From an uncultured Victivallaceae bacterium (GTDB lineage Bacteria; Verrucomicrobiota; Lentisphaeria; Victivallales; Victivallaceae), in the NCBI GenBank assembly GCA_944392655.1, contig CALXXL010000020.1, forward strand, positions 1 through 36,583: a stretch of 36,583 nucleotides of DNA. The letters run 5' to 3'. Position 1 is the stretch's first letter. Each line of letters begins with the position of its first letter. The notes below the pieces were generated by a model that was not told the origin of the DNA, searched no databases, and saw only the letters and a program-made list of their open reading frames with translations. Shown here piece after piece: positions 4,673-32,833 of the stretch. The translations under genes were made by a program, and so were the position numbers.

Positions 4673-5425
4673 ATGAATTTTTTGCATAATTTTAAAACCG
4701 GTTTTTGCTGTGCGCTTAGAGGGGTGGCGGAGTTCTACCGCCGTCCGGAATATCTGGTCTACATGATTGTGCCTTTAATTCTGCTGTTGGCGCTTTACGG
4801 AATTGCGGTATGGGGGGCGCGTGAACTCTACTTATGGAGCAGCGGATTTCTGCCTGAGCCGCAGGATTGGTATGATGGGTGGCGCTGGCTTGCGGTACTC
4901 ATCCGGTGGATCTGGGGTATAACAATTTTCATAACGTCGGCGGTTTTGATGGGGATTTGCGCCAATTCGCTTTTTGAGGCGTTTGGAGCGGTATTATTCG
5001 ACTCGATGGTGGCAAAATTTGAATTGGAAAAATACGGCCGTCCGGCGGAAAGGGGCAATTTTTCCACAGAGTTCGAACTTGCTTGCGTGGCGGCGGGGTT
5101 TGCGTTGGTTACTCTTGCAATCGGATTTTTTGCCTGGCTGATCGGTCTTTTCATTCCGTTTTGCGGGTGGTTGCTGCCGAGTGTAGCGACCTGCCGCAGA
5201 ATAGGCTGTTCCTACTTATGGAGTTCGGTGCTCACCCATAATGCGCTTGACCGGCGGGATGAGCTTTTTGAGGCGGACAATTGGCTGGTTGCGGGTTTCG
5301 GCATGGCGTGCGTAATAATGCTCGCTATTCCGGTTCTGGCGATTATTTTTATCCCCGGCATGGTTTTGGGCGGCGCCATTGTTTACAATGAACACCTTGA
5401 TACTGTACTGGAGGATGTCGGGTGA
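4673..5425 (+). CDS. EI24/CysZ-like integral membrane protein
   Basis: A 250-residue membrane protein with hydrophobic segments near 28-48, 72-98, 135-165 and 207-235. The stretch around 155-195 (IPFCGWLLPSVATCRR, then SYLWSS...ALDRRDE) matches the EI24 (etoposide-induced 2.4) family, which includes the CysZ sulfate permease. In that family a pore-lining loop is followed by an ALDRRG-like sequence. It heads a run of glycan genes and overlaps the next gene by 4 bases, so it is translationally coupled to it. Shine-Dalgarno GGGAG sits 8 bases before the ATG. Sulfate or other anion transport is possible, but nothing nearby points to sulfur metabolism, so the substrate is left open. Confidence 0.65.
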   Translation: MNFLHNFKTGFCCALRGVAEFYRRPEYLVYMIVPLILLLALYGIAVWGARELYLWSSGFLPEPQDWYDGWRWLAVLIRWIWGITIFITSAVLMGICANSLFEAFGAVLFDSMVAKFELEKYGRPAERGNFSTEFELACVAAGFALVTLAIGFFAWLIGLFIPFCGWLLPSVATCRRIGCSYLWSSVLTHNALDRRDELFEADNWLVAGFGMACVIMLAIPVLAIIFIPGMVLGGAIVYNEHLDTVLEDVG

Positions 5426-6318
5426 AATACGCTCCTATGGTTTTATTTGCCTATAAACGGCCTGATCATATCAGGCGGTGTGTGGAGTCGCTTTTGCGTA
5501 ATCCGGAGGCCGCGGAGTGCAGACTTACCGTCTATTCGGATGCTCCGGCGGCAGAGGCGGATATTCCTCTGGTTTCGGAGGTGCGGAAATATCTGCACAC
5601 GATTTCCGGTTTTGCCTGTGTGGATATTGTTGAACAGGAATATCACCGCGGTCTGGCAGGTTCGGTAATCTGTGGAATTGACCGGGCATTGGCGGAGAGC
5701 GACCGGGTGGTGGTGCTGGAGGATGATCTTGAAGTATCGCCGTATTTTCTGCGTTATATGTTTGAAGCGTTGGAACTCTATCAGGATGATCCGCAGGTTA
5801 TGGAGATACACGGATTCACGCCGGTTGACGGTACGGTTTGCGGGGAGACAATGTTTCTGCGCGGAGCGGATTGCTGGGGGTGGGGAACATGGCGCCGTGC
5901 CTGGCATAATTTTGAACCGGACAGCTTGAAACTGCTCGCCCGTTTCAACCGCCGCAGCCGCCGTGAGTTTGATCTTGACGGTGCATTTCCGTATTACCGG
6001 ATGCTGGAAAATCAGGCGTTGGGGAGGATCGACTCCTGGGCGGTGCGGTGGCACGCTTCGGCGTTTCTGGCCGGGGGGCTGACGCTCTATCCGGCCAGAT
6101 CCCTGGTGCGCAACACCGGATTTGACGGTACGGGCACCCACCGCGGTTCGAACTGGGAGGGCAGGGCGGATCTTGCGGCGGAACCGGTTGAGGTTGTCCG
6201 GATTCCCATTGCGGAGTCGGAGTGCTTTAAAAATCTGATGATAAAATATTATCGCCGCAAGCGCGGCAATATGGCATTGCGATTGATGCGGCGGATTTTT
6301 CATATTTTATTTGGCTGA
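5422..6318 (+). CDS. GT-A fold glycosyltransferase (GNT-I/GT2-like)
   Basis: A 298-residue soluble transferase with an N-terminal nucleotide-sugar domain (PMVLFAYKRPDHIRRCVESL, 5-24). VVVLEDDLEVSPYF (96-109) holds the E/D-D-D metal and nucleotide site. GWGTWRRAW (153-161) is a motif seen in GNT-I-like bacterial transferases. It starts with GTG at 5422, overlapping the previous stop as GTGA, with GGAGG 7 bases upstream. It probably adds a sugar during assembly of a surface polysaccharide or lipopolysaccharide, judging by the transferases and aminotransferase that follow. Donor and acceptor cannot be read from sequence. Confidence 0.75.
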   Translation: MKYAPMVLFAYKRPDHIRRCVESLLRNPEAAECRLTVYSDAPAAEADIPLVSEVRKYLHTISGFACVDIVEQEYHRGLAGSVICGIDRALAESDRVVVLEDDLEVSPYFLRYMFEALELYQDDPQVMEIHGFTPVDGTVCGETMFLRGADCWGWGTWRRAWHNFEPDSLKLLARFNRRSRREFDLDGAFPYYRMLENQALGRIDSWAVRWHASAFLAGGLTLYPARSLVRNTGFDGTGTHRGSNWEGRADLAAEPVEVVRIPIAESECFKNLMIKYYRRKRGNMALRLMRRIFHILFG

Positions 6319-6366
6319 GCAGAATAGCGGTGTATATTAGATGAAAACATTTTGAGGAGTGCTATT

Positions 6367-7473
6367 TTGATCGTTAAACAGTGTTCGCCTCTGGCGGGTT
6401 ATTTGGAACTGAAATCCGGGATCGATTCGGCGGTTATGCGGGTACTTTCCGGCGGCGCTTATATTCTCGGACGCGAGGTGGCGGCTTTTGAAGAGGAGTT
6501 TGCCGCGTGGAATGGCAGCGGTTTTGCGGTTGGCTGTGCGTCGGGTACCGATGCGCTGGAACTGATTCTGCGTGCGCTGCATCTGCCGGAAAAATCGCTG
6601 GTGCTGACTTCTGCCAATACGGCGGCGGCGACGGCAGCGGCGGTGATGCGTGCCGGATGCCGGGTATGTTTTGCGGAGGTGGACGGCCGTTCAATGAATC
6701 TTACACCGGAGAGTGTGCGTGAGGCGCTGAGCCGTGCCGGCGGCCGGGTGAAAGCGGTTATTGCGGTGCATCTGTTCGGTAATCCGGCTCCGGCGGATGA
6801 GCTGGCGGAGGTGTGTGCCGGATTCGGCGTTCCGCTGATCGAGGATTGTGCGCAGGCGACCGGGGCGCGGCTCGGGGGAAGAAAGGTTGGCAACTTCGGG
6901 ATTGCCGGAGCGTTCAGTTTTTACCCGACCAAGAATCTCGGGGCATTTGGCGATGGCGGACTGGTGACGGTAAATGATCCGGCTTTAGCGGAGGAGTTGA
7001 AGCTCATGCGGCAGTACGGCTGGAAGGTGCGCTACGAGAGCAGTTGCAACGGTATCAACTCCCGGCTGGATGAGCTTCAGGCGGCGATACTGCGGGTGAA
7101 GCTGCCACATCTGGATGCGGCCAATCTGCGCCGGATTGAACTTGCCGGGCGGTATTATGAAAAATTGAGCGGCTGTTCCGGAATAGTCCTGCCATGTAAA
7201 GCTGATAATGCGGAACATGTCTATCATCAGTTTGTAATTCAGTGTGCCGGGCGGGATGAGAAGGTGGCTTGCCTGGCGGAGAGTGGAATTGCCACCATGG
7301 TGCATTATCCGGTGCCGCTGCACCGTCAGAAGGCATATATTTCGGCGCCGCGTCTGACCTCGCTTGAAATTACGGAAAAGGTGACGGCGGAAATTATCAG
7401 TCTGCCAATCTACCCGGAACTGCCGCCTGAAGCGGTTGACTATGTGTCGGAAACGTTGTCGAAGCTGTTATGA
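6367..7473 (+). CDS. DegT/DnrJ/EryC1/StrS sugar aminotransferase
   Basis: A PLP-dependent aminotransferase of the DegT family, about 368 residues. It converts a keto-sugar nucleotide to an amino sugar, usually with glutamate as amino donor. Visible sites are GCASGTDALEL (56-66, cofactor phosphate), EDCAQATGA (159-167, Asp contacting the pyridine nitrogen) and FSFYPTKNLGAFGDGG (183-198), where Lys189 forms the PLP aldimine. I chose the TTG at 6367 because GAGGAG (6354-6359) sits 7 bases before it. The TTG at 6352 would have no ribosome site and would add five residues. It overlaps the next gene by 4 bases. An amino sugar such as QuiNAc, FucNAc or Qui3N is therefore likely in the glycan made here. 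Confidence 0.85.
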   Translation: MIVKQCSPLAGYLELKSGIDSAVMRVLSGGAYILGREVAAFEEEFAAWNGSGFAVGCASGTDALELILRALHLPEKSLVLTSANTAAATAAAVMRAGCRVCFAEVDGRSMNLTPESVREALSRAGGRVKAVIAVHLFGNPAPADELAEVCAGFGVPLIEDCAQATGARLGGRKVGNFGIAGAFSFYPTKNLGAFGDGGLVTVNDPALAEELKLMRQYGWKVRYESSCNGINSRLDELQAAILRVKLPHLDAANLRRIELAGRYYEKLSGCSGIVLPCKADNAEHVYHQFVIQCAGRDEKVACLAESGIATMVHYPVPLHRQKAYISAPRLTSLEITEKVTAEIISLPIYPELPPEAVDYVSETLSKLL

Positions 7474-8420
7474 AGTACCATTTTTTCAGCTGTTTTGACC
7501 GTAATTACGCCGTGACCGGACTTACCCTGTACCGGTCGTTGAAGGCGTTGCAGCTTGACTTTGAATTTTACGTCTGCGCACTGGATAGAGAGTGTTACGA
7601 TATTATTGCCTGCCTGGCGGAGCGCGGGGAGCGGCTGATTCCGGTTGACTTGGCGGAGGTGGAGCGATTTGACCCGGAGTTTGCCGGCTGTCGTGCCGGT
7701 CGTTCGCGGGCAGAGTATATTTTTACACTGAGTCCGGTGCTGCCGGGCTATCTCTTTCACGCCTTTCCCGGGGTGGATATGTTCACTTATCTGGATGCGG
7801 ATCTCTTCTTTTACCGTGATCCGGAGGAGATCTTCCGGGAGTTTGAAGCGGCGCATGGAAATGCGTTGATAGTTGAACACGGATTTCCTGAGCGTTTGAA
7901 ATGGCGGGAAAGACTGTTCGGCCGATTCAATGTGGAATTTCAAATTTACCGGCGCGGCGGAGCGGAGGCGATTTTAGCCGACTGGCGCAGCAAATGTCTT
8001 GAGTGGTGTTTCGACCGGGCGGACAATGGCCGTTTTGCCGACCAGAAATATCTTGATGCCTGGCCGGAAGAGTTTACCGGCGTTGTAATTACCGGTAACT
8101 CCGGAGCCGGAGTTGCGCCGTGGAACTGGCCGGAGCGTGATTTGAATAAGATGATATTTTTCCACTTTCAGGGATTTAACTTTCTGTCATCGCACTGGGC
8201 GTCTACCAACTGTGGCAGTTACGGCAACCGGCACAATAAGGCGATAGCGCAGCTCTACCGTGGTTATGCCGGAGAGTTGAAAGAGAGTGCCGGATGGCTG
8301 AAATCGCTTCTGCCGGGCGGACAATTCTCAGCCGTCAAGCGCGAGCCCCGCATCAACAGCGGAAAAATACGGAAGATAATCTCTGCGGCAGTGCACCATA
8401 ATTTGCTTTACATACCATGA
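7470..8420 (+). CDS. GT8-like nucleotide-sugar transferase
   Basis: A 316-residue soluble protein with a GT-A nucleotide-diphospho-sugar fold. The N-terminus (HFFSCFDRNYAVTGLTLYRS, 4-23) resembles family 8 transferases, where a strand leads to a loop that binds the nucleotide. TYLDADLFFY (106-115) carries the DXD metal site (109-111), also as in GT8. The later region has conserved-looking HFQGFNF and SHWAS. ATGA overlap with the aminotransferase upstream and with the GT2 gene downstream indicates coupled translation. It acts in the same glycan pathway. The sugar transferred is unknown. Confidence 0.65.
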   Translation: MKYHFFSCFDRNYAVTGLTLYRSLKALQLDFEFYVCALDRECYDIIACLAERGERLIPVDLAEVERFDPEFAGCRAGRSRAEYIFTLSPVLPGYLFHAFPGVDMFTYLDADLFFYRDPEEIFREFEAAHGNALIVEHGFPERLKWRERLFGRFNVEFQIYRRGGAEAILADWRSKCLEWCFDRADNGRFADQKYLDAWPEEFTGVVITGNSGAGVAPWNWPERDLNKMIFFHFQGFNFLSSHWASTNCGSYGNRHNKAIAQLYRGYAGELKESAGWLKSLLPGGQFSAVKREPRINSGKIRKIISAAVHHNLLYIP

Positions 8421-9151
8421 AAATATCGATTATAACTCCGGTTCTGAATCAGGCCGCCACGATTGAGCGGACGATAAAAAGCGTACTCGGCGAAAGGCCG
8501 TGTGGCGCAGATATTGAGTATATAATTATCGACGGCGGCTCCAACGACGGAACCAGAGAGATTATCTCCGGATACGCTTCAGAGCTGGCCTACTGGCAGA
8601 GCCGGCCGGACGGTGGTCTGTATGATGCGATGAATCAGGGGATTGCTAGGGCGACGGGAGAGATTATCGGTATTATAAACGGTGATGACTACTATCTTCC
8701 CGGCGCCTTCAGCAAGGTAACTGCCGCATTGACGCCTTATTTTACCGGCGAGATGATTCTGTGGGGAGACGTGATTTACGAAAAACAGGGTCGGGTGAAA
8801 GGATTCCGGTCGGGCAACCGTTATATCGGTGCCTTTGCACCGCATCCATCCATGTTTGCAACGGCCGGCGTCTACCGGAAGATTGGCGGCTACGATACAA
8901 AATTCCGTTATCTTGCCGACTATGATTTCATGTACCGTGCAGTCAATGCTTTTATGATTCCGCATATCTATCTGGCTGAGCCGCTGGCCTTTTTCTCGGA
9001 GGGCGGACTGGCGGACAGTCATATAAGAGAGTGCCTGTACGACGAATTGATGATCAAGCTGAAATACGGACAACCATGGCTGGCAGCCTATCTTCTCTAC
9101 CGGCTGAAGCTGTTGAAAAACCGCCGCCGTATCCGTTCGGCGCAAAAATAA
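8417..9151 (+). CDS. GT2 family glycosyltransferase (WcaE-like)
   Basis: A 244-residue family 2 transferase. SIITPVLNQAATIERTIKSV (4-23) is the first nucleotide-binding strand and helix. IIDGGSNDGT (37-46) carries the acidic base site. SRPDGGLYDAMNQG (62-75) and INGDDYY (87-93) are characteristic of the WcaE-like subgroup of GT2, with the DD pair binding the metal-nucleotide complex. It is the last gene of the coupled operon and ends in an A-rich stretch immediately before the 9154-9181 hairpin. Its role is probably addition of one sugar to a lipid-linked repeat unit or LPS core. No polymerase or flippase is in the window, so completing genes must lie elsewhere. Confidence 0.82.
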   Translation: MKISIITPVLNQAATIERTIKSVLGERPCGADIEYIIIDGGSNDGTREIISGYASELAYWQSRPDGGLYDAMNQGIARATGEIIGIINGDDYYLPGAFSKVTAALTPYFTGEMILWGDVIYEKQGRVKGFRSGNRYIGAFAPHPSMFATAGVYRKIGGYDTKFRYLADYDFMYRAVNAFMIPHIYLAEPLAFFSEGGLADSHIRECLYDELMIKLKYGQPWLAAYLLYRLKLLKNRRRIRSAQK

Positions 9152-29103: not shown

Positions 29104-30090
29104 TTACTTCTTTTCGAACATCTTGCGGATGCGGGCGCCGACGATTTCCGCCGGGTGCTGGCCCAGAGCTTCGCGTTTGGCTTTCAAGTTCTTGGCGCCG
29201 CTGCGGGCTTCCGCCATCCATTCCTTGGCGAAACCGCCGTCTTCGATGAATTTCAAGGATTTCTTCATACGTTCCTTGACTTCGATCGGCAGAATGCGCG
29301 GACCGTTGATGTATTCGCCCCATTCAGCGGTATTGGAGATAACCTGATTCATCTTCTGGATACCGCCTTCGTAGATGAGGTCGACGATGAGTTTCAGTTC
29401 ATGGATACATTCGAAGTATGCCATTTCGGGCGGATATCCCGCTTCGGTAAGAACTTCGAAGCCATATTTCATCAAATCGACGCAACCGCCGCAGAGAACG
29501 TTCTGTTCGCCGAAAAGGTCTTCATAAGTTTCCTGTTCCATGGTGCATTCGAGAACGCCGGCGCGGGTCAGACCTTCGGCCTTGGCGATAGCCAGAGCGG
29601 TTTCGCGTGCTTTGCCGGTGTAATCCTGTTTTACAGCGATAAGACCGGGAACGCCGAAACCTTCAACGAAGCGTTTGCGTTCTTCAGTACCCGGGCTCTT
29701 GGGAGCGACCATGATAACGTCGACATCTTTTGGCGGAACGATTTCGCCGAAGACGAAGTTGAATCCGTGCGAGCAGCTGAGAGTTTTGCCGGCGGTCAGA
29801 TACGGAGCGATTTCAGCTTTGTATACGGGGCCGTGGGTTTCGTCGGGAAGCAGGATGTGAATAATATCAGCTTCCTTGGAGGCATCAGCAACGCTGAGGG
29901 TTTTGAAACCGTCTTCAACTGCGGCGTCAAAGCTCGGGCCCTTGCGAACGCCGATGATGACGTTGAGACCGGAATCCCGGAGGCACAACGCCTGGGCGCG
30001 GCCCTGGCTGCCGTAACCGATAACGGCGATTACTTTTCCTGACAGAACGCTGAGATCAACCGCGTTGTCGTGAATGATTGGCATATCCAT
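29104..30090 (-). CDS. ilvC: Ketol-acid reductoisomerase, class I
   Basis: Converts acetolactate and acetohydroxybutyrate to dihydroxy acids in branched-chain amino-acid synthesis, using NAD(P)H and Mg. At 328 residues it is the short class I form. The Rossmann loop is VIGYGSQGRAQA (23-34). The cofactor loop after beta-2 (GVRKGPSFDAA) is one residue shorter than the common RPGSKSW type. The knotted helical domain has CTMEQETYEDLFGEQNVLCGG with Glu/Asp metal ligands and ends HPAEIVGARIRKMF. Shine-Dalgarno AAGGAG precedes the ATG. Other ilv genes are not in the window, so it stands alone with its own promoter. Confidence 0.95.
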   Translation of the reverse strand: MDMPIIHDNAVDLSVLSGKVIAVIGYGSQGRAQALCLRDSGLNVIIGVRKGPSFDAAVEDGFKTLSVADASKEADIIHILLPDETHGPVYKAEIAPYLTAGKTLSCSHGFNFVFGEIVPPKDVDVIMVAPKSPGTEERKRFVEGFGVPGLIAVKQDYTGKARETALAIAKAEGLTRAGVLECTMEQETYEDLFGEQNVLCGGCVDLMKYGFEVLTEAGYPPEMAYFECIHELKLIVDLIYEGGIQKMNQVISNTAEWGEYINGPRILPIEVKERMKKSLKFIEDGGFAKEWMAEARSGAKNLKAKREALGQHPAEIVGARIRKMFEKK

Positions 30091-30352: not shown

Positions 30353-31789
30353 ATGAATGCAAAAGACATTTCAATCAACGTAAGCAATCCGGTTGCCGGA
30401 CAGAACAATAACCGTACAATGGCAATAAATCCCGCGCCTGCTCCGCAGACGTCCGGGGCGGTTCCGGCGGCTCAGCCGCAGGCTCCGAATCAGCAGTCGT
30501 CGCAGGACAAGGAGCAGACGCAGATTTACGGAAACATTCCGGAGCGTCCGGTATATGATGCAGTTGAAGGGATAAAGTTTGACTTCAATGATGGTATTCG
30601 TGTGGCAATTCCGCCGAATGGCAAAGAGTACCGTGTGGCGTTTTCGGATATGGATACAGGCGTATATCTTTATAATGCGGTGGTTCCCGCCGGTGGAATG
30701 GTTACCAGTGTGAAGAAGTTCTTCATCCGTTTCAAGCTGGAGATTTACCGTCGCAATGAAAGCGAACCGATATTTGTGCATGAATATGATCCGACCGGCA
30801 AACTGGTAATGATTCAGCTGCCGGTATCGACGCTTGGAGACCCGCTGGGTTGGTTCCCGTATGTGGACAAATTCCAGCAGAAATACGGCTGTGAAGTTGT
30901 AGCGGTGCTGAACGAGCCGTTGATTCCGGTATTTGAGAAGTGCTATCCGAACATCAAGCTGATAACCTCCAAGGAGACGTTGAATTACAAGCCTTACGCC
31001 TGTTATTATCTCGGGCTGTTCTTCCGTGGCAACACGACGAATCAGCCGTCGGACTTCCGTTATGTCGGTCTTCACCGCACGGCGGGTTATATTCTTGGAG
31101 TGGATCCGGAGGAGGTGCCGCCAAAGTTTGATCTTTCAGCACCGCGCCAGATCAAGGAGCCTTACGTATGTATAGCGGTACAGAGTTCGAACCAGGCGAA
31201 ATACTGGAACAATCCGACCGGCTGGCGTGAGGTGATAGCATTTCTGAAGGCTGCCGGCTACCGTGTCCTGTGCATGGACCGTGATCCGGTTTACGGCTGG
31301 GGTACCAACTTCAACCACATTCCGCACGGGTGCGAGGATTTCACGGGCAATCATCCGTTGCAGGAACGTATTGACATTATCAAGGATGCTGACTTTTTTG
31401 TTGGTCTGTCGAGTGGTTTGAGCTGGCTGGCGTGGGGTTGCCGTGTGCCGGTGGTGATGATCTCAGGATTAACGCATCCTCTGAATGAATTCAATACGCC
31501 GTACCGTGTGATCAACTATCACACCTGCAACAGCTGCTGGAACGACATGCGGGTAGATTTTGACCATTATGATTTTCTGTGGTGTCCGCGTCACAAAGGA
31601 ACGGAGCGTCACTTTGAATGTACCAAAATGATCAGTCCCTTCCAGGTGATTGAGACGATCAAGCGTATTCCTCAGTATCAGGCTCAGGCGGCCAGACACA
31701 AAGCGGAACAGGAAGCGGCCGAAAGTGGTAAATCATCCGGCGGTGCGGCGGCAAAAACATCCGGTAAAGGGGCAAAAAAAGGGAAATAA
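30353..31789 (+). CDS. TibC/Aah-type O-heptosyltransferase (BAHT family)
   Basis: A 478-residue cytosolic transferase resembling the bacterial autotransporter heptosyltransferases, which put ADP-heptose on Ser residues of strand-loop-strand passenger repeats. After a Pro/Gln-rich tail (1-60), the N-terminal domain has VRVAFSDMDTGVYLYN-like strands (about 93-108). The GT-B part holds VCIAVQSSNQAKYWNNPTGWREV (272-294) and DADFFVGLSSGLSWLAWGCRVPVVMISG (345-372), the nucleotide-binding end. A metal finger follows with CNSC (392-395), Cys411 and Cys423, matching the iron finger of TibC. The Lys/Ala-rich tail (445-478) is an addition. ApbE follows 3 bases later. No autotransporter substrate is encoded in the window. 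Confidence 0.8.
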   Translation: MNAKDISINVSNPVAGQNNNRTMAINPAPAPQTSGAVPAAQPQAPNQQSSQDKEQTQIYGNIPERPVYDAVEGIKFDFNDGIRVAIPPNGKEYRVAFSDMDTGVYLYNAVVPAGGMVTSVKKFFIRFKLEIYRRNESEPIFVHEYDPTGKLVMIQLPVSTLGDPLGWFPYVDKFQQKYGCEVVAVLNEPLIPVFEKCYPNIKLITSKETLNYKPYACYYLGLFFRGNTTNQPSDFRYVGLHRTAGYILGVDPEEVPPKFDLSAPRQIKEPYVCIAVQSSNQAKYWNNPTGWREVIAFLKAAGYRVLCMDRDPVYGWGTNFNHIPHGCEDFTGNHPLQERIDIIKDADFFVGLSSGLSWLAWGCRVPVVMISGLTHPLNEFNTPYRVINYHTCNSCWNDMRVDFDHYDFLWCPRHKGTERHFECTKMISPFQVIETIKRIPQYQAQAARHKAEQEAAESGKSSGGAAAKTSGKGAKKGK

Positions 31790-31792
31790 TTT

Positions 31793-32833
31793 ATGCCTAA
31801 ATGGTTAAGCGCTGCGCTTATAATTGCTGCCGCGGTGTTGTTGACGGCAGGGGTGATTTTCTACGCTGTCGGCCGTCATCACTTTGGCCGCGATGTGATG
31901 GTTGCGGATATAGAGGTGATGAGTACAGTTGCTGAGATTACGCTGCCGGCAGGTAAGAATACCGGTGAAGACATTCTTGCGGCGGCGGAAGCTCTGGCTT
32001 CGGTGCAGAGTTATTGTAATATTTTTGATGAAGAAAGTGAATTGTCCGAGCTCAACCGTACAGCTCACGAACAGCCGTTTGTCTGTTCGGAAGAGCTGTA
32101 CGCGGTGTTGTCTGAAGCGCGGAGAGCCTATAGTGTTTCGGAGGGGCGTTTTGATATAAGTTGTCTGCCGCTGATGCGGATCTGGGGTTTTTATGCCGGG
32201 GATGATGATGAAGAACTGACCCGTCCGGACTCGGAAGAGCTGTTGTCAGCGCTGGCGATGACCGGATTGGACAAGGTTGTGTTTGATGATGCTGCCCGGT
32301 CGGTCTATTTTCCGGTTAAAGGAATGTGCCTGGATCTTGGCGGCATAGCCAAGGGGTATGCGGTTGACCGTGCGGTGGATGTCCTGTCTGCGCGTAAATG
32401 CCGTTCCGGGGTGGTTAATCTTGGCGGCAATCTCCGGGTTCTGCCGGATGGACTGCGTCGCGGCGGCAAATACGGCATTGGCATAAAGAATCCGTTGAAT
32501 CCGGCATCGGTCTGTTATTCGATCAATGTCAAAGGCGGTTATGCTGTGGCCACGAGCGGCAGTTATGAGCGTTTTGTAGAGATAGACGGGATCTATTACA
32601 GTCATATTATCGATCCGTCGAGTGGCGAGCCGGCGGTGAGCAGTGTGCTGTCGGCCACAGTAGTTGCTCCGACTGCGATTCAGGCGGACTGGCTGTCAAC
32701 TGCGGTTTTCATCGGCGGGGAGGAATTTGCCCGTCGTATGGTGAAACTGGATCCACAGCTCCGGATAATCCTGTGCATTGCCTCTGACAACGAATGTGGT
32801 TTTACGATAGTTGATCTTCCTGAAGCCGGTTAA
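31793..32833 (+). CDS. apbE: FAD:protein FMN transferase, ApbE family
   Basis: Attaches FMN from FAD to Thr/Ser of envelope flavoproteins such as NqrB, NqrC or RnfG. In 346 residues, one N-terminal membrane helix (about 5-26) without a lipobox anchors it facing the periplasm. Conserved sites are MSTVAEI (43-49), CLDLGGIAKGYAVDRA (179-194), NLGGNL (209-214), HIIDPSSGEP (271-280) and AIQADWLSTAVF (295-306, Mg and FAD site). It follows the heptosyltransferase by 3 bases. No Nqr, Rnf or FMN-binding target is nearby. Its stop overlaps that of the convergent zinc-ribbon gene in a shared TTAA. Confidence 0.93.
   Translation: MPKWLSAALIIAAAVLLTAGVIFYAVGRHHFGRDVMVADIEVMSTVAEITLPAGKNTGEDILAAAEALASVQSYCNIFDEESELSELNRTAHEQPFVCSEELYAVLSEARRAYSVSEGRFDISCLPLMRIWGFYAGDDDEELTRPDSEELLSALAMTGLDKVVFDDAARSVYFPVKGMCLDLGGIAKGYAVDRAVDVLSARKCRSGVVNLGGNLRVLPDGLRRGGKYGIGIKNPLNPASVCYSINVKGGYAVATSGSYERFVEIDGIYYSHIIDPSSGEPAVSSVLSATVVAPTAIQADWLSTAVFIGGEEFARRMVKLDPQLRIILCIASDNECGFTIVDLPEAG

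Follow-up and report, generated by a model that had tools for sequence, protein, structure and literature searches.

The window, that is, the whole 36,583-nucleotide stretch of DNA that was analysed, makes up contig C20 in full, one of the 37 contigs in a 2.34-Mb MAG that is 95% complete, and it encodes a TibC/Aah-type O-heptosyltransferase (BAHT). The reviews PMC8498110 and PMC8151025 describe the clients of BAHTs as type V autotransporters. The original prediction was that the window holds no autotransporter, and this was borne out: TIGR04415, the model for the strand-loop-strand (SLS) repeat, gave no match on C20 at E ≤ 1, and no PF03797 barrel was found anywhere in the genome at E ≤ 1. The locus raises the question of which proteins such an enzyme would modify, and how these would leave the cell. 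The features of the locus are as follows (below, G, C and L numbers denote genomes, contigs of the window's genome unless a genome is given, and loci).

29104..30090, minus strand: ketol-acid reductoisomerase (IlvC), the divergent upstream neighbour of BAHT, named by profile match
30353..31789, plus strand: BAHT (TibC/Aah-type O-heptosyltransferase), 478 aa, ATG start; TIGR04414, 553 bits
30353..30541, plus strand: Pro/Gln/Ala N-terminal tether, residues 1-63, beginning MNAKDISIN, with one clear motif copy
30839..30841, plus strand: codon of Asp163, the equivalent of the TibC catalytic base Asp110 by alignment with TibC (role from PMC4358343)
31151..31483, plus strand: GT-B C-lobe, Glyco_transf_9 match, residues 267-377 (Ser279, Lys283, Arg339, Ser353, Trp358), from Pfam and the TibC alignment
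31526..31621, plus strand: iron finger Cys392-Cys395-Cys411-Cys423, with spacing identical to TibC Cys339/342/358/370
31673..31786, plus strand: Lys/Ala-rich C-terminal tail, residues 441-478; such tails occur in only some relatives
31793..32833, plus strand: ApbE-family FMN transferase (PF02424, 234 bits), starting 3 nt after the BAHT stop

By sequence, the open reading frame 30353-31789 is a true BAHT. The TIGR04414 (hepto_Aah_TibC) model covered residues 64-439 with a score well over its cut-off of 200 bits, and this was the single TIGR04414 match in the genome. The Pfam domains TibC_1st (PF21129, 65 bits) and Glyco_transf_9 (PF01075, 40 bits) were both above their cut-offs, and a search of the PDB returned TibC (4rb4/4rap) at an E value of about 1e-133, with residues 62-440 aligned. 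In PMC4358343, the TibC iron finger is given as Cys339/342/358/370 and the catalytic base as Asp110. The four cysteines of the window protein align column for column with those of TibC, and TibC Asp110, Lys230, Arg286 and Trp305 correspond to Asp163, Lys283, Arg339 and Trp358; all eight residues are invariant in a 27-row alignment. The metal finger and GT-B signature of an autotransporter heptosyltransferase, as originally predicted, were thus confirmed by the TIGR04414 match, the TibC match and the invariant residues. TibC Thr226 is replaced by Ser279 and TibC Pro300 by Ser353. PMC4358343 describes AAH as having Ser where TibC has Pro300 and as taking both ADP-heptose epimers, and so Ser353 suggests, by analogy with AAH, that the window BAHT may accept both epimers.

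The gene that follows, ApbE, had been named as the partner of the BAHT. The adjacency itself is real, and ApbE is perhaps co-transcribed with BAHT. The nearest relative found, G135, belongs to the same genus and has the same gene order, IlvC-BAHT-ApbE (the IlvC neighbour in G135 is what we take it to be from recognition of its sequence), with orthologues 73% identical for BAHT and 48% for ApbE; G135 also holds two further BAHTs. Among the loci examined, ApbE stands beside BAHT in this genus only, apart from one 35% match at a locus edge (L264). Because the adjacency is limited to one lineage, we rejected ApbE as a functional partner and take its position as incidental; its function is probably unrelated to that of BAHT. 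The contig ends 4.8 kb downstream of BAHT, and so a further neighbour beyond the end is possible. Elsewhere in the window, at 4673-9151, a gene cluster encodes a CysZ/EI24-like protein, two GT2 glycosyltransferases and a DegT aminotransferase; it may be an operon for a surface glycan.

Both tails of the enzyme, the Pro/Gln-rich one and the Lys/Ala-rich one, had been called unusual. They are present, but the N-terminal tail is not peculiar to this protein: by sequence it is a lineage-conserved feature with a DFTIN-like motif. Its layout in the lineage is [DNKE][FILVY][ST][IVF]x once or twice, a Pro/Ala linker, and then typically IYG. At least one motif copy was found in 39 of 52 tails from Lentisphaeria and Desulfovibrionaceae (shuffle mean 1.2), and at least two copies in 14 of the 52 (shuffle mean 0.035); these tails came from 52 of the 53 loci L220-L272, with start codons picked by a simple rule, and the loci partly overlap the first set of 27 rows from which the pattern was chosen. 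In that first set, which is for this reason not independent, 18 of the 27 rows had at least one copy and 11 had at least two. Among close viral rows the motif occurred in 7 of 19 (shuffle mean 0.3), and distant viral rows showed no enrichment (2 of 60, with 2.6 expected). Four rows were motif-positive in the group L273-L299, and by their printed tails these are of Lentisphaeria or prophage type. The tails printed for many of the loci L159-L219 resemble each other. Probably this tail serves as a flexible tether through whose DFTIN-like motif the BAHT docks on a client or some other partner; docking and self-modification are both guesses at what the motif does.

The donor sugar appears to be within reach of the cell. 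HldD (365 bits, cut-off 275) and a GmhB-type phosphatase (141 bits with TIGR01656, a broader HisB/GmhB-type model, cut-off 84) scored above their cut-offs, and three further candidates scored below theirs: HldA at 334.5 bits, just under 345, HldC at 162 bits against 181.5, and a GmhA-like protein at 83 bits in the genome search and 115 bits as a whole protein, against 209. The genome search for ADP-heptose synthesis that had been proposed thus yielded sequence candidates for all five steps. The HldA gene adjoins putative Kds and Lpt genes, recognised by reading. HldC- and GmhA-type matches were found in 24 of 24 BAHT genomes of the phylum. Two genomes that lack BAHT (G055 and G070) had no convincing form of any of the five enzymes, and a third (G002), also without BAHT, has HldA.

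Candidate clients were sought with the SLS repeat model. TIGR04415 matched 28 places in the genome at E ≤ 1, on contigs C1, C2, C14, C18 and C19, and 8 of the 28, located on C1, C14 and C18 and in two genes of C2, exceeded the family cut-off, alone or with neighbouring matches; at E ≤ 1 the model also gives matches in 6 of 14 control genomes, above the cut-off in one. The five complete SLS genes encode proteins of 1,205 aa (C1a), 1,592 aa (C1b), 2,988 aa (C2a), 2,016 aa (C2b) and 1,363 aa (C14b), and all begin close to the repeat region, with no evident signal peptide by reading. One more SLS frame, on C18, is cut by the contig edge, and another lies at the edge of C19. Judged by sequence, at least five SLS proteins are encoded outside the window contig, which agrees with the earlier expectation that strand-loop-strand substrates would be encoded elsewhere: the genome search found them on C1, C2, C14 and C18. 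The ADP-heptose pathway and the autotransporter-like proteins, on whose presence in the genome the original prediction depends, are represented by the pathway candidates and by these SLS proteins, respectively. In large part, the earlier idea is supported.

C1a has only sub-cut-off TIGR04415 matches and is 68% identical to its neighbour C1b, which has one match above the cut-off when neighbouring matches are included. In an AF2 model of C1a, mean pLDDT per block of 10 residues is 73-93 across residues 241-510; the model is poor outside this region, with a whole-chain mean of 57. Foldseek with this model gave eight matches at E ≤ 0.001, namely six Ag43 chains, 4kh3 and the TibC-glycosylated TibA fragment 4q1q, with low TM-scores (0.52 of the target for 4q1q and at most 0.31 for the Ag43 chains). 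PMC4358343 gives SGG as the context of a mapped TibA glycosylation site. SGG was more frequent than in any of 500 shuffles in C1a, C1b and C2b, but not in C2a, C14a or C14b. TIGR04415 did not match C14a (939 aa), which has a non-RTX C-terminal module in common with C2a and C2b. A profile of this module, iterated on its own matches, also found it in two G135 proteins, of which one is encoded 2.4 kb away from the BAHT orthologue.

Three observations concern SLS genes more generally. On contig C1 of G000, the gene of a radical SAM/SPASM protein (L054:11662-12690; nearest family ScmE, with 194 bits against a cut-off of 400) is flanked on either side by an SLS gene, and the C-terminal halves of these flanking genes are nearly identical. 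SLS open frames of 8,107 and 8,205 aa were found at G120:C16:126272-136486 and G100:C12:18556-30243. In G016, the gene that separates BAHT from an FG-GAP/Chlam_PMP-repeat protein (L089:6938-9466) encodes a GT2+GT1 glycosyltransferase, which might extend the heptose.

The association of BAHT with SLS proteins was evaluated in a sample of 145 genomes of the phylum, with BAHT called at E ≤ 1e-40 and SLS at E ≤ 1e-5. BAHT was found in 24 of the 145 genomes (23 of them above the TIGR04414 cut-off) and SLS likewise in 24, with both in 21. SLS proteins were present in 21 of 24 BAHT genomes, compared to 3 of 121 others (Fisher p = 4e-19), and within the window's own family (f1) in 13 of 16 BAHT genomes, compared to 2 of 10 others (p = 0.004); kinship is ignored in both tests, and so both p values overstate the association. 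SLS without BAHT was seen in G019, G025 and G070. BAHT without SLS was seen in G022, G031 and G064, which have only a divergent BAHT subfamily (about 400 bits) and lack the main type. The members of this subfamily (L042, L043, L044, L049, L050 and L051) are 37-40% identical to the window protein. An SLS frame flanks BAHT in 20 of the 53 loci L220-L272; the genome relatives of BAHT are the best 80 of at least 522.

We then asked whether the SLS proteins of the lineage look like autotransporters, the kind of BAHT client described so far, and they do not: they appear mostly signal-less and barrel-less. The SLS set comprised 47 frames, taken from Lentisphaeria loci and from a small number of Desulfovibrionaceae loci, with frames identical in their last 60 residues counted once, and the background was 488 called proteins of more than 150 aa from the same loci, in which SLS proteins remain and genes of overlapping loci occur more than once; genes in the loci were called with a codon-usage caller, and some calls are shadow ORFs. 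Within residues 1-70, a hydrophobic 10-mer (mean hydropathy ≥ 2.0) was found in 2 of 46 complete SLS N-termini compared to 174 of 488 in the background (p = 2e-6), and lowering the threshold to 1.7 flagged 10 of the 46. Conversely, 19 of 32 complete SLS C-termini end in [LIVMF]A, compared to 30 of 488 in the background (p = 1e-13); the C2a and C2b proteins of the window's own genome do not end in a hydrophobic residue followed by Ala. The hydrophobicity test is crude: limited to the part ahead of the first SLS repeat, it fails to flag one of seven autotransporter-type clients (L290, a PF03797 protein), and applied in the same way it places L228, L244 and L261 on the Lentisphaeria side above the threshold. 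N-termini below the threshold were also found in clients of several Alphaproteobacteria and one Thermomicrobiota MAG, and an acidobacterial client (L293) falls just above it, with a signal absent by eye.

Some further features of these proteins would fit a type I route. RTX repeats were found in 5 of 12 Pfam-scanned SLS or beta-helix proteins (L121, L126, L223, L255 and L261); of these, L126 comes from G070, which has neither BAHT nor the ADP-heptose pathway, and L121 from G076, the BAHT genome with a PF03797 barrel. Among the other scanned proteins, some carried an FG-GAP or a PPC domain and one carried a type IX sorting domain. No RTX was seen in the clients of the window's own genome, by Pfam in C14b and C2b, by motif count in C1b, C14b and C2b, and by reading in C1a, C2a and C14a. 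This genome encodes an HlyB-like ABC protein (640 bits, below the cut-off of 726) beside an HlyD (286 bits, above the cut-off of 209). HlyD was found in 22 of 24 BAHT genomes compared to 20 of 121 others. As a specific correlate of BAHT it was rejected, since the association is phylum-wide only and is lost within family f1 (16 of 16 genomes with BAHT and 9 of 10 without). The SLS clients are most likely type I secretion substrates and not autotransporters, type I export being the best reading of the client features and not a proof.

Taken together, these results make the following reading a likely one: the BAHT, supplied with the cell's own ADP-heptose, heptosylates SLS proteins encoded on other contigs, which are exported through an HlyB/HlyD-type I system, with the N-terminal tail serving in docking. 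The BAHT, active-looking by sequence, would work in the cytoplasm with ADP-heptose from the cell's own LPS-type pathway as the donor and would place heptose on Ser in the loops of strand-loop-strand beta-helices. The large SLS proteins of the other contigs would be its clients, receiving their heptose in the cytoplasm before they leave through the HlyB/HlyD-type I system of the genome. Catalysis, client identity, export route and the role of the motif are what we infer here from the family, the catalytic residues, the pathway candidates, the SLS features, the exporter genes and the co-occurrence, all of them read from sequence.

The BAHT may act as proposed on SLS proteins that leave by a type IX, two-partner or unknown system, which we consider unlikely. 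The type IX sorting domain mentioned above (Por_Secre_tail) is in a BAHT-adjacent SLS protein (L228), the C-terminal module common to C2a, C2b and C14a is non-RTX, and the failure of HlyD to track BAHT within family f1 also fits such a route; on the other hand, the N-termini of the SLS proteins disfavour Sec-dependent routes, and the RTX repeats in 5 of the 12 scanned proteins and the HlyB/HlyD pair of the genome argue for type I.

A rather improbable explanation is that this is an ordinary BAHT whose autotransporter partner is encoded elsewhere, with a barrel missed by the model, or in a gap of the MAG. PMC8151025 states that a BAHT may lie away from its target, and there is room for a partner in a MAG that is 95% complete in 37 contigs, given that C20 ends where it does and that SLS frames lie at the edges of C18 (cut) and C19. 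PF03797 was the type V model used, and it fails on likely Burkholderiaceae autotransporters. A hydrophobic leader is present in most of the BAHT-adjacent clients of Burkholderiaceae and Oxalobacter, and the six complete C-termini among them (L273, L277, L288, L290, L297 and L298) all end in Phe, but L290, which itself fails the hydrophobicity test, is the only one that PF03797 matched. Because L273, L277 and L297, with a signal peptide and a terminal Phe, are also without a match, we rejected the absence of PF03797 as proof that there is no autotransporter. A home-made barrel HMM built from 10 sequences matched a barrel in L290 only and was discarded. Against an ordinary partner are the absence of PF03797 (E ≤ 0.001) from 23 of 24 BAHT genomes, with G076 as the exception, the absence of a hydrophobic N-terminus from 44 of 46 SLS frames at the threshold used, and the C-termini: among the 32 complete SLS C-termini only that of C2b, a protein without a Pfam match, ends in Phe, compared to 6 of 6 in the complete autotransporter-type clients. 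Finally, that the BAHT mainly modifies its own tail or another protein, or is inactive, is very improbable, since the Ser/Thr within the conserved tail motif and the three genomes with a divergent BAHT and no SLS detected are outweighed by the conserved catalytic and iron-finger residues, the strong BAHT-SLS co-occurrence with frequent adjacency in relatives, and the lack of the main BAHT type in those same three genomes.

The pairing of BAHT with an SLS protein extends to phages. IMG/VR holds 426 BAHT-encoding stretches, of which the best 80 were examined, and in 9 of these 80 (L140-L142, L144-L148 and L150) an SLS frame adjoins BAHT, the SLS/AIDA-repeat frames beside viral BAHTs being about 435-750 aa in length. 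In L144, L147 and L148, the BAHT+SLS pair is within a run of tail-like genes, and AIDA repeats were found in both of the clients tested from these three. A PHROGs search with proteins of L144 and L147 gave one tape-measure and one minor-tail match, both weak, and three proteins of L144, L147 and L148, including the L148 protein tested, gave no PHROGs match. The same run of genes with a BAHT+SLS pair is present on a bacterial contig (L099; G011:C35:3590-4831, minus strand), where the PHROGs matches of the neighbours were weak tail matches and one family of unknown function only. Clear tail tube and sheath genes were found in L157, and clear terminase and portal genes in L161, in which the BAHT-type domain is fused behind a GT group 1 domain; an SLS frame was not found in either locus. 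INPHARED contained four records with distant BAHT relatives, including Microcystis phage Mel-JY01 (37% identity).

A quick tree was built from 117 rows, with SH-aLRT supports only, 12 loci that duplicate phylum-set contigs omitted and 8 of the 60 loci of L159-L219 used. In it, the window protein pairs with its G135 orthologue (support 100), and this pair adjoins gut Desulfovibrionaceae (95). These lie within a mostly Lentisphaeria group of 58 rows (90) that includes the viral rows L143 and L149, and a phage group of L140-L142, L144-L148, L099 and three MAG rows adjoins the Lentisphaeria group (83). Five loci from goat-gut Desulfovibrionaceae MAGs (L253, L254, L257, L267 and L268) have a BAHT of the Lentisphaeria type, with an SLS frame in three of the five, and given their place beside the window protein, transfer between phyla is probable.

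If signal-less clients do receive heptose and then leave by type I secretion, heptosylation would be uncoupled from Sec/autotransporter export. PMC8151025 asks whether every beta-helix can be a BAHT substrate and by what means glycosylated domains are freed and unfolded when they are exported; signal-less type I clients, if real, would bear on both questions. The phage pairs raise the possibility that phages sugar-coat tail proteins using host ADP-heptose. In its widest form, which we put forward tentatively, BAHTs would be a general O-heptosylation module for SLS beta-solenoids, be they autotransporters, signal-less proteins of the type I kind (in Lentisphaeria, gut Desulfovibrionaceae and probably other phyla) or phage tail proteins, and the one tethered BAHT of this genome would serve many clients genome-wide, as the earlier idea of a general O-heptosylation system would have it. 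What these results add is a set of clients that appear to lack a signal and probably use type I export, a tether conserved in the lineage, and BAHT+SLS pairs in phages; in the open-access PMC literature we found nothing on a Lentisphaeria BAHT, on signal-less BAHT clients or on a phage BAHT.

The system can be compared with four known ones. With TibC and Aah, the window BAHT shares homology over the whole domain, the catalytic base, the sugar-binding residues save for the Thr to Ser change, and the four-Cys finger with identical spacing; it differs from TibC in having Ser353 instead of Pro300, as in AAH, and from both in its conserved N-terminal tether with a DFTIN-like motif, its Lys/Ala tail, and the lack of a PF03797 autotransporter either beside it or in its genome. 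The passengers of TibA, AIDA-I and Ag43 (TIGR04415, PF16168) resemble the SLS proteins of the lineage in their repeats, and the C1a model best matches Ag43 and TibA 4q1q. Unlike them, the lineage proteins are mostly without a hydrophobic N-terminus and without a PF03797 barrel, and part of them have RTX, FG-GAP or PPC domains and C-termini of a hydrophobic residue followed by Ala.

RTX proteins exported by HlyB/HlyD are similar in their signal-less N-terminus, in the RTX repeats of 5 of the 12 scanned proteins (none seen in the clients of the window's own genome), and in the HlyB/HlyD-type pair of the genome, whereas the lineage proteins carry AIDA/SLS repeats and co-occur with BAHT, and their link to the exporter is a proposed one. 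The phage tail-module BAHT+SLS pairs of IMG/VR have an enzyme of the same family beside an AIDA-repeat protein and, in 7 of 19 close viral rows, the N-terminal tail motif; they differ from the window BAHT in belonging mostly to a separate clade and in having a putative tail protein as the client.
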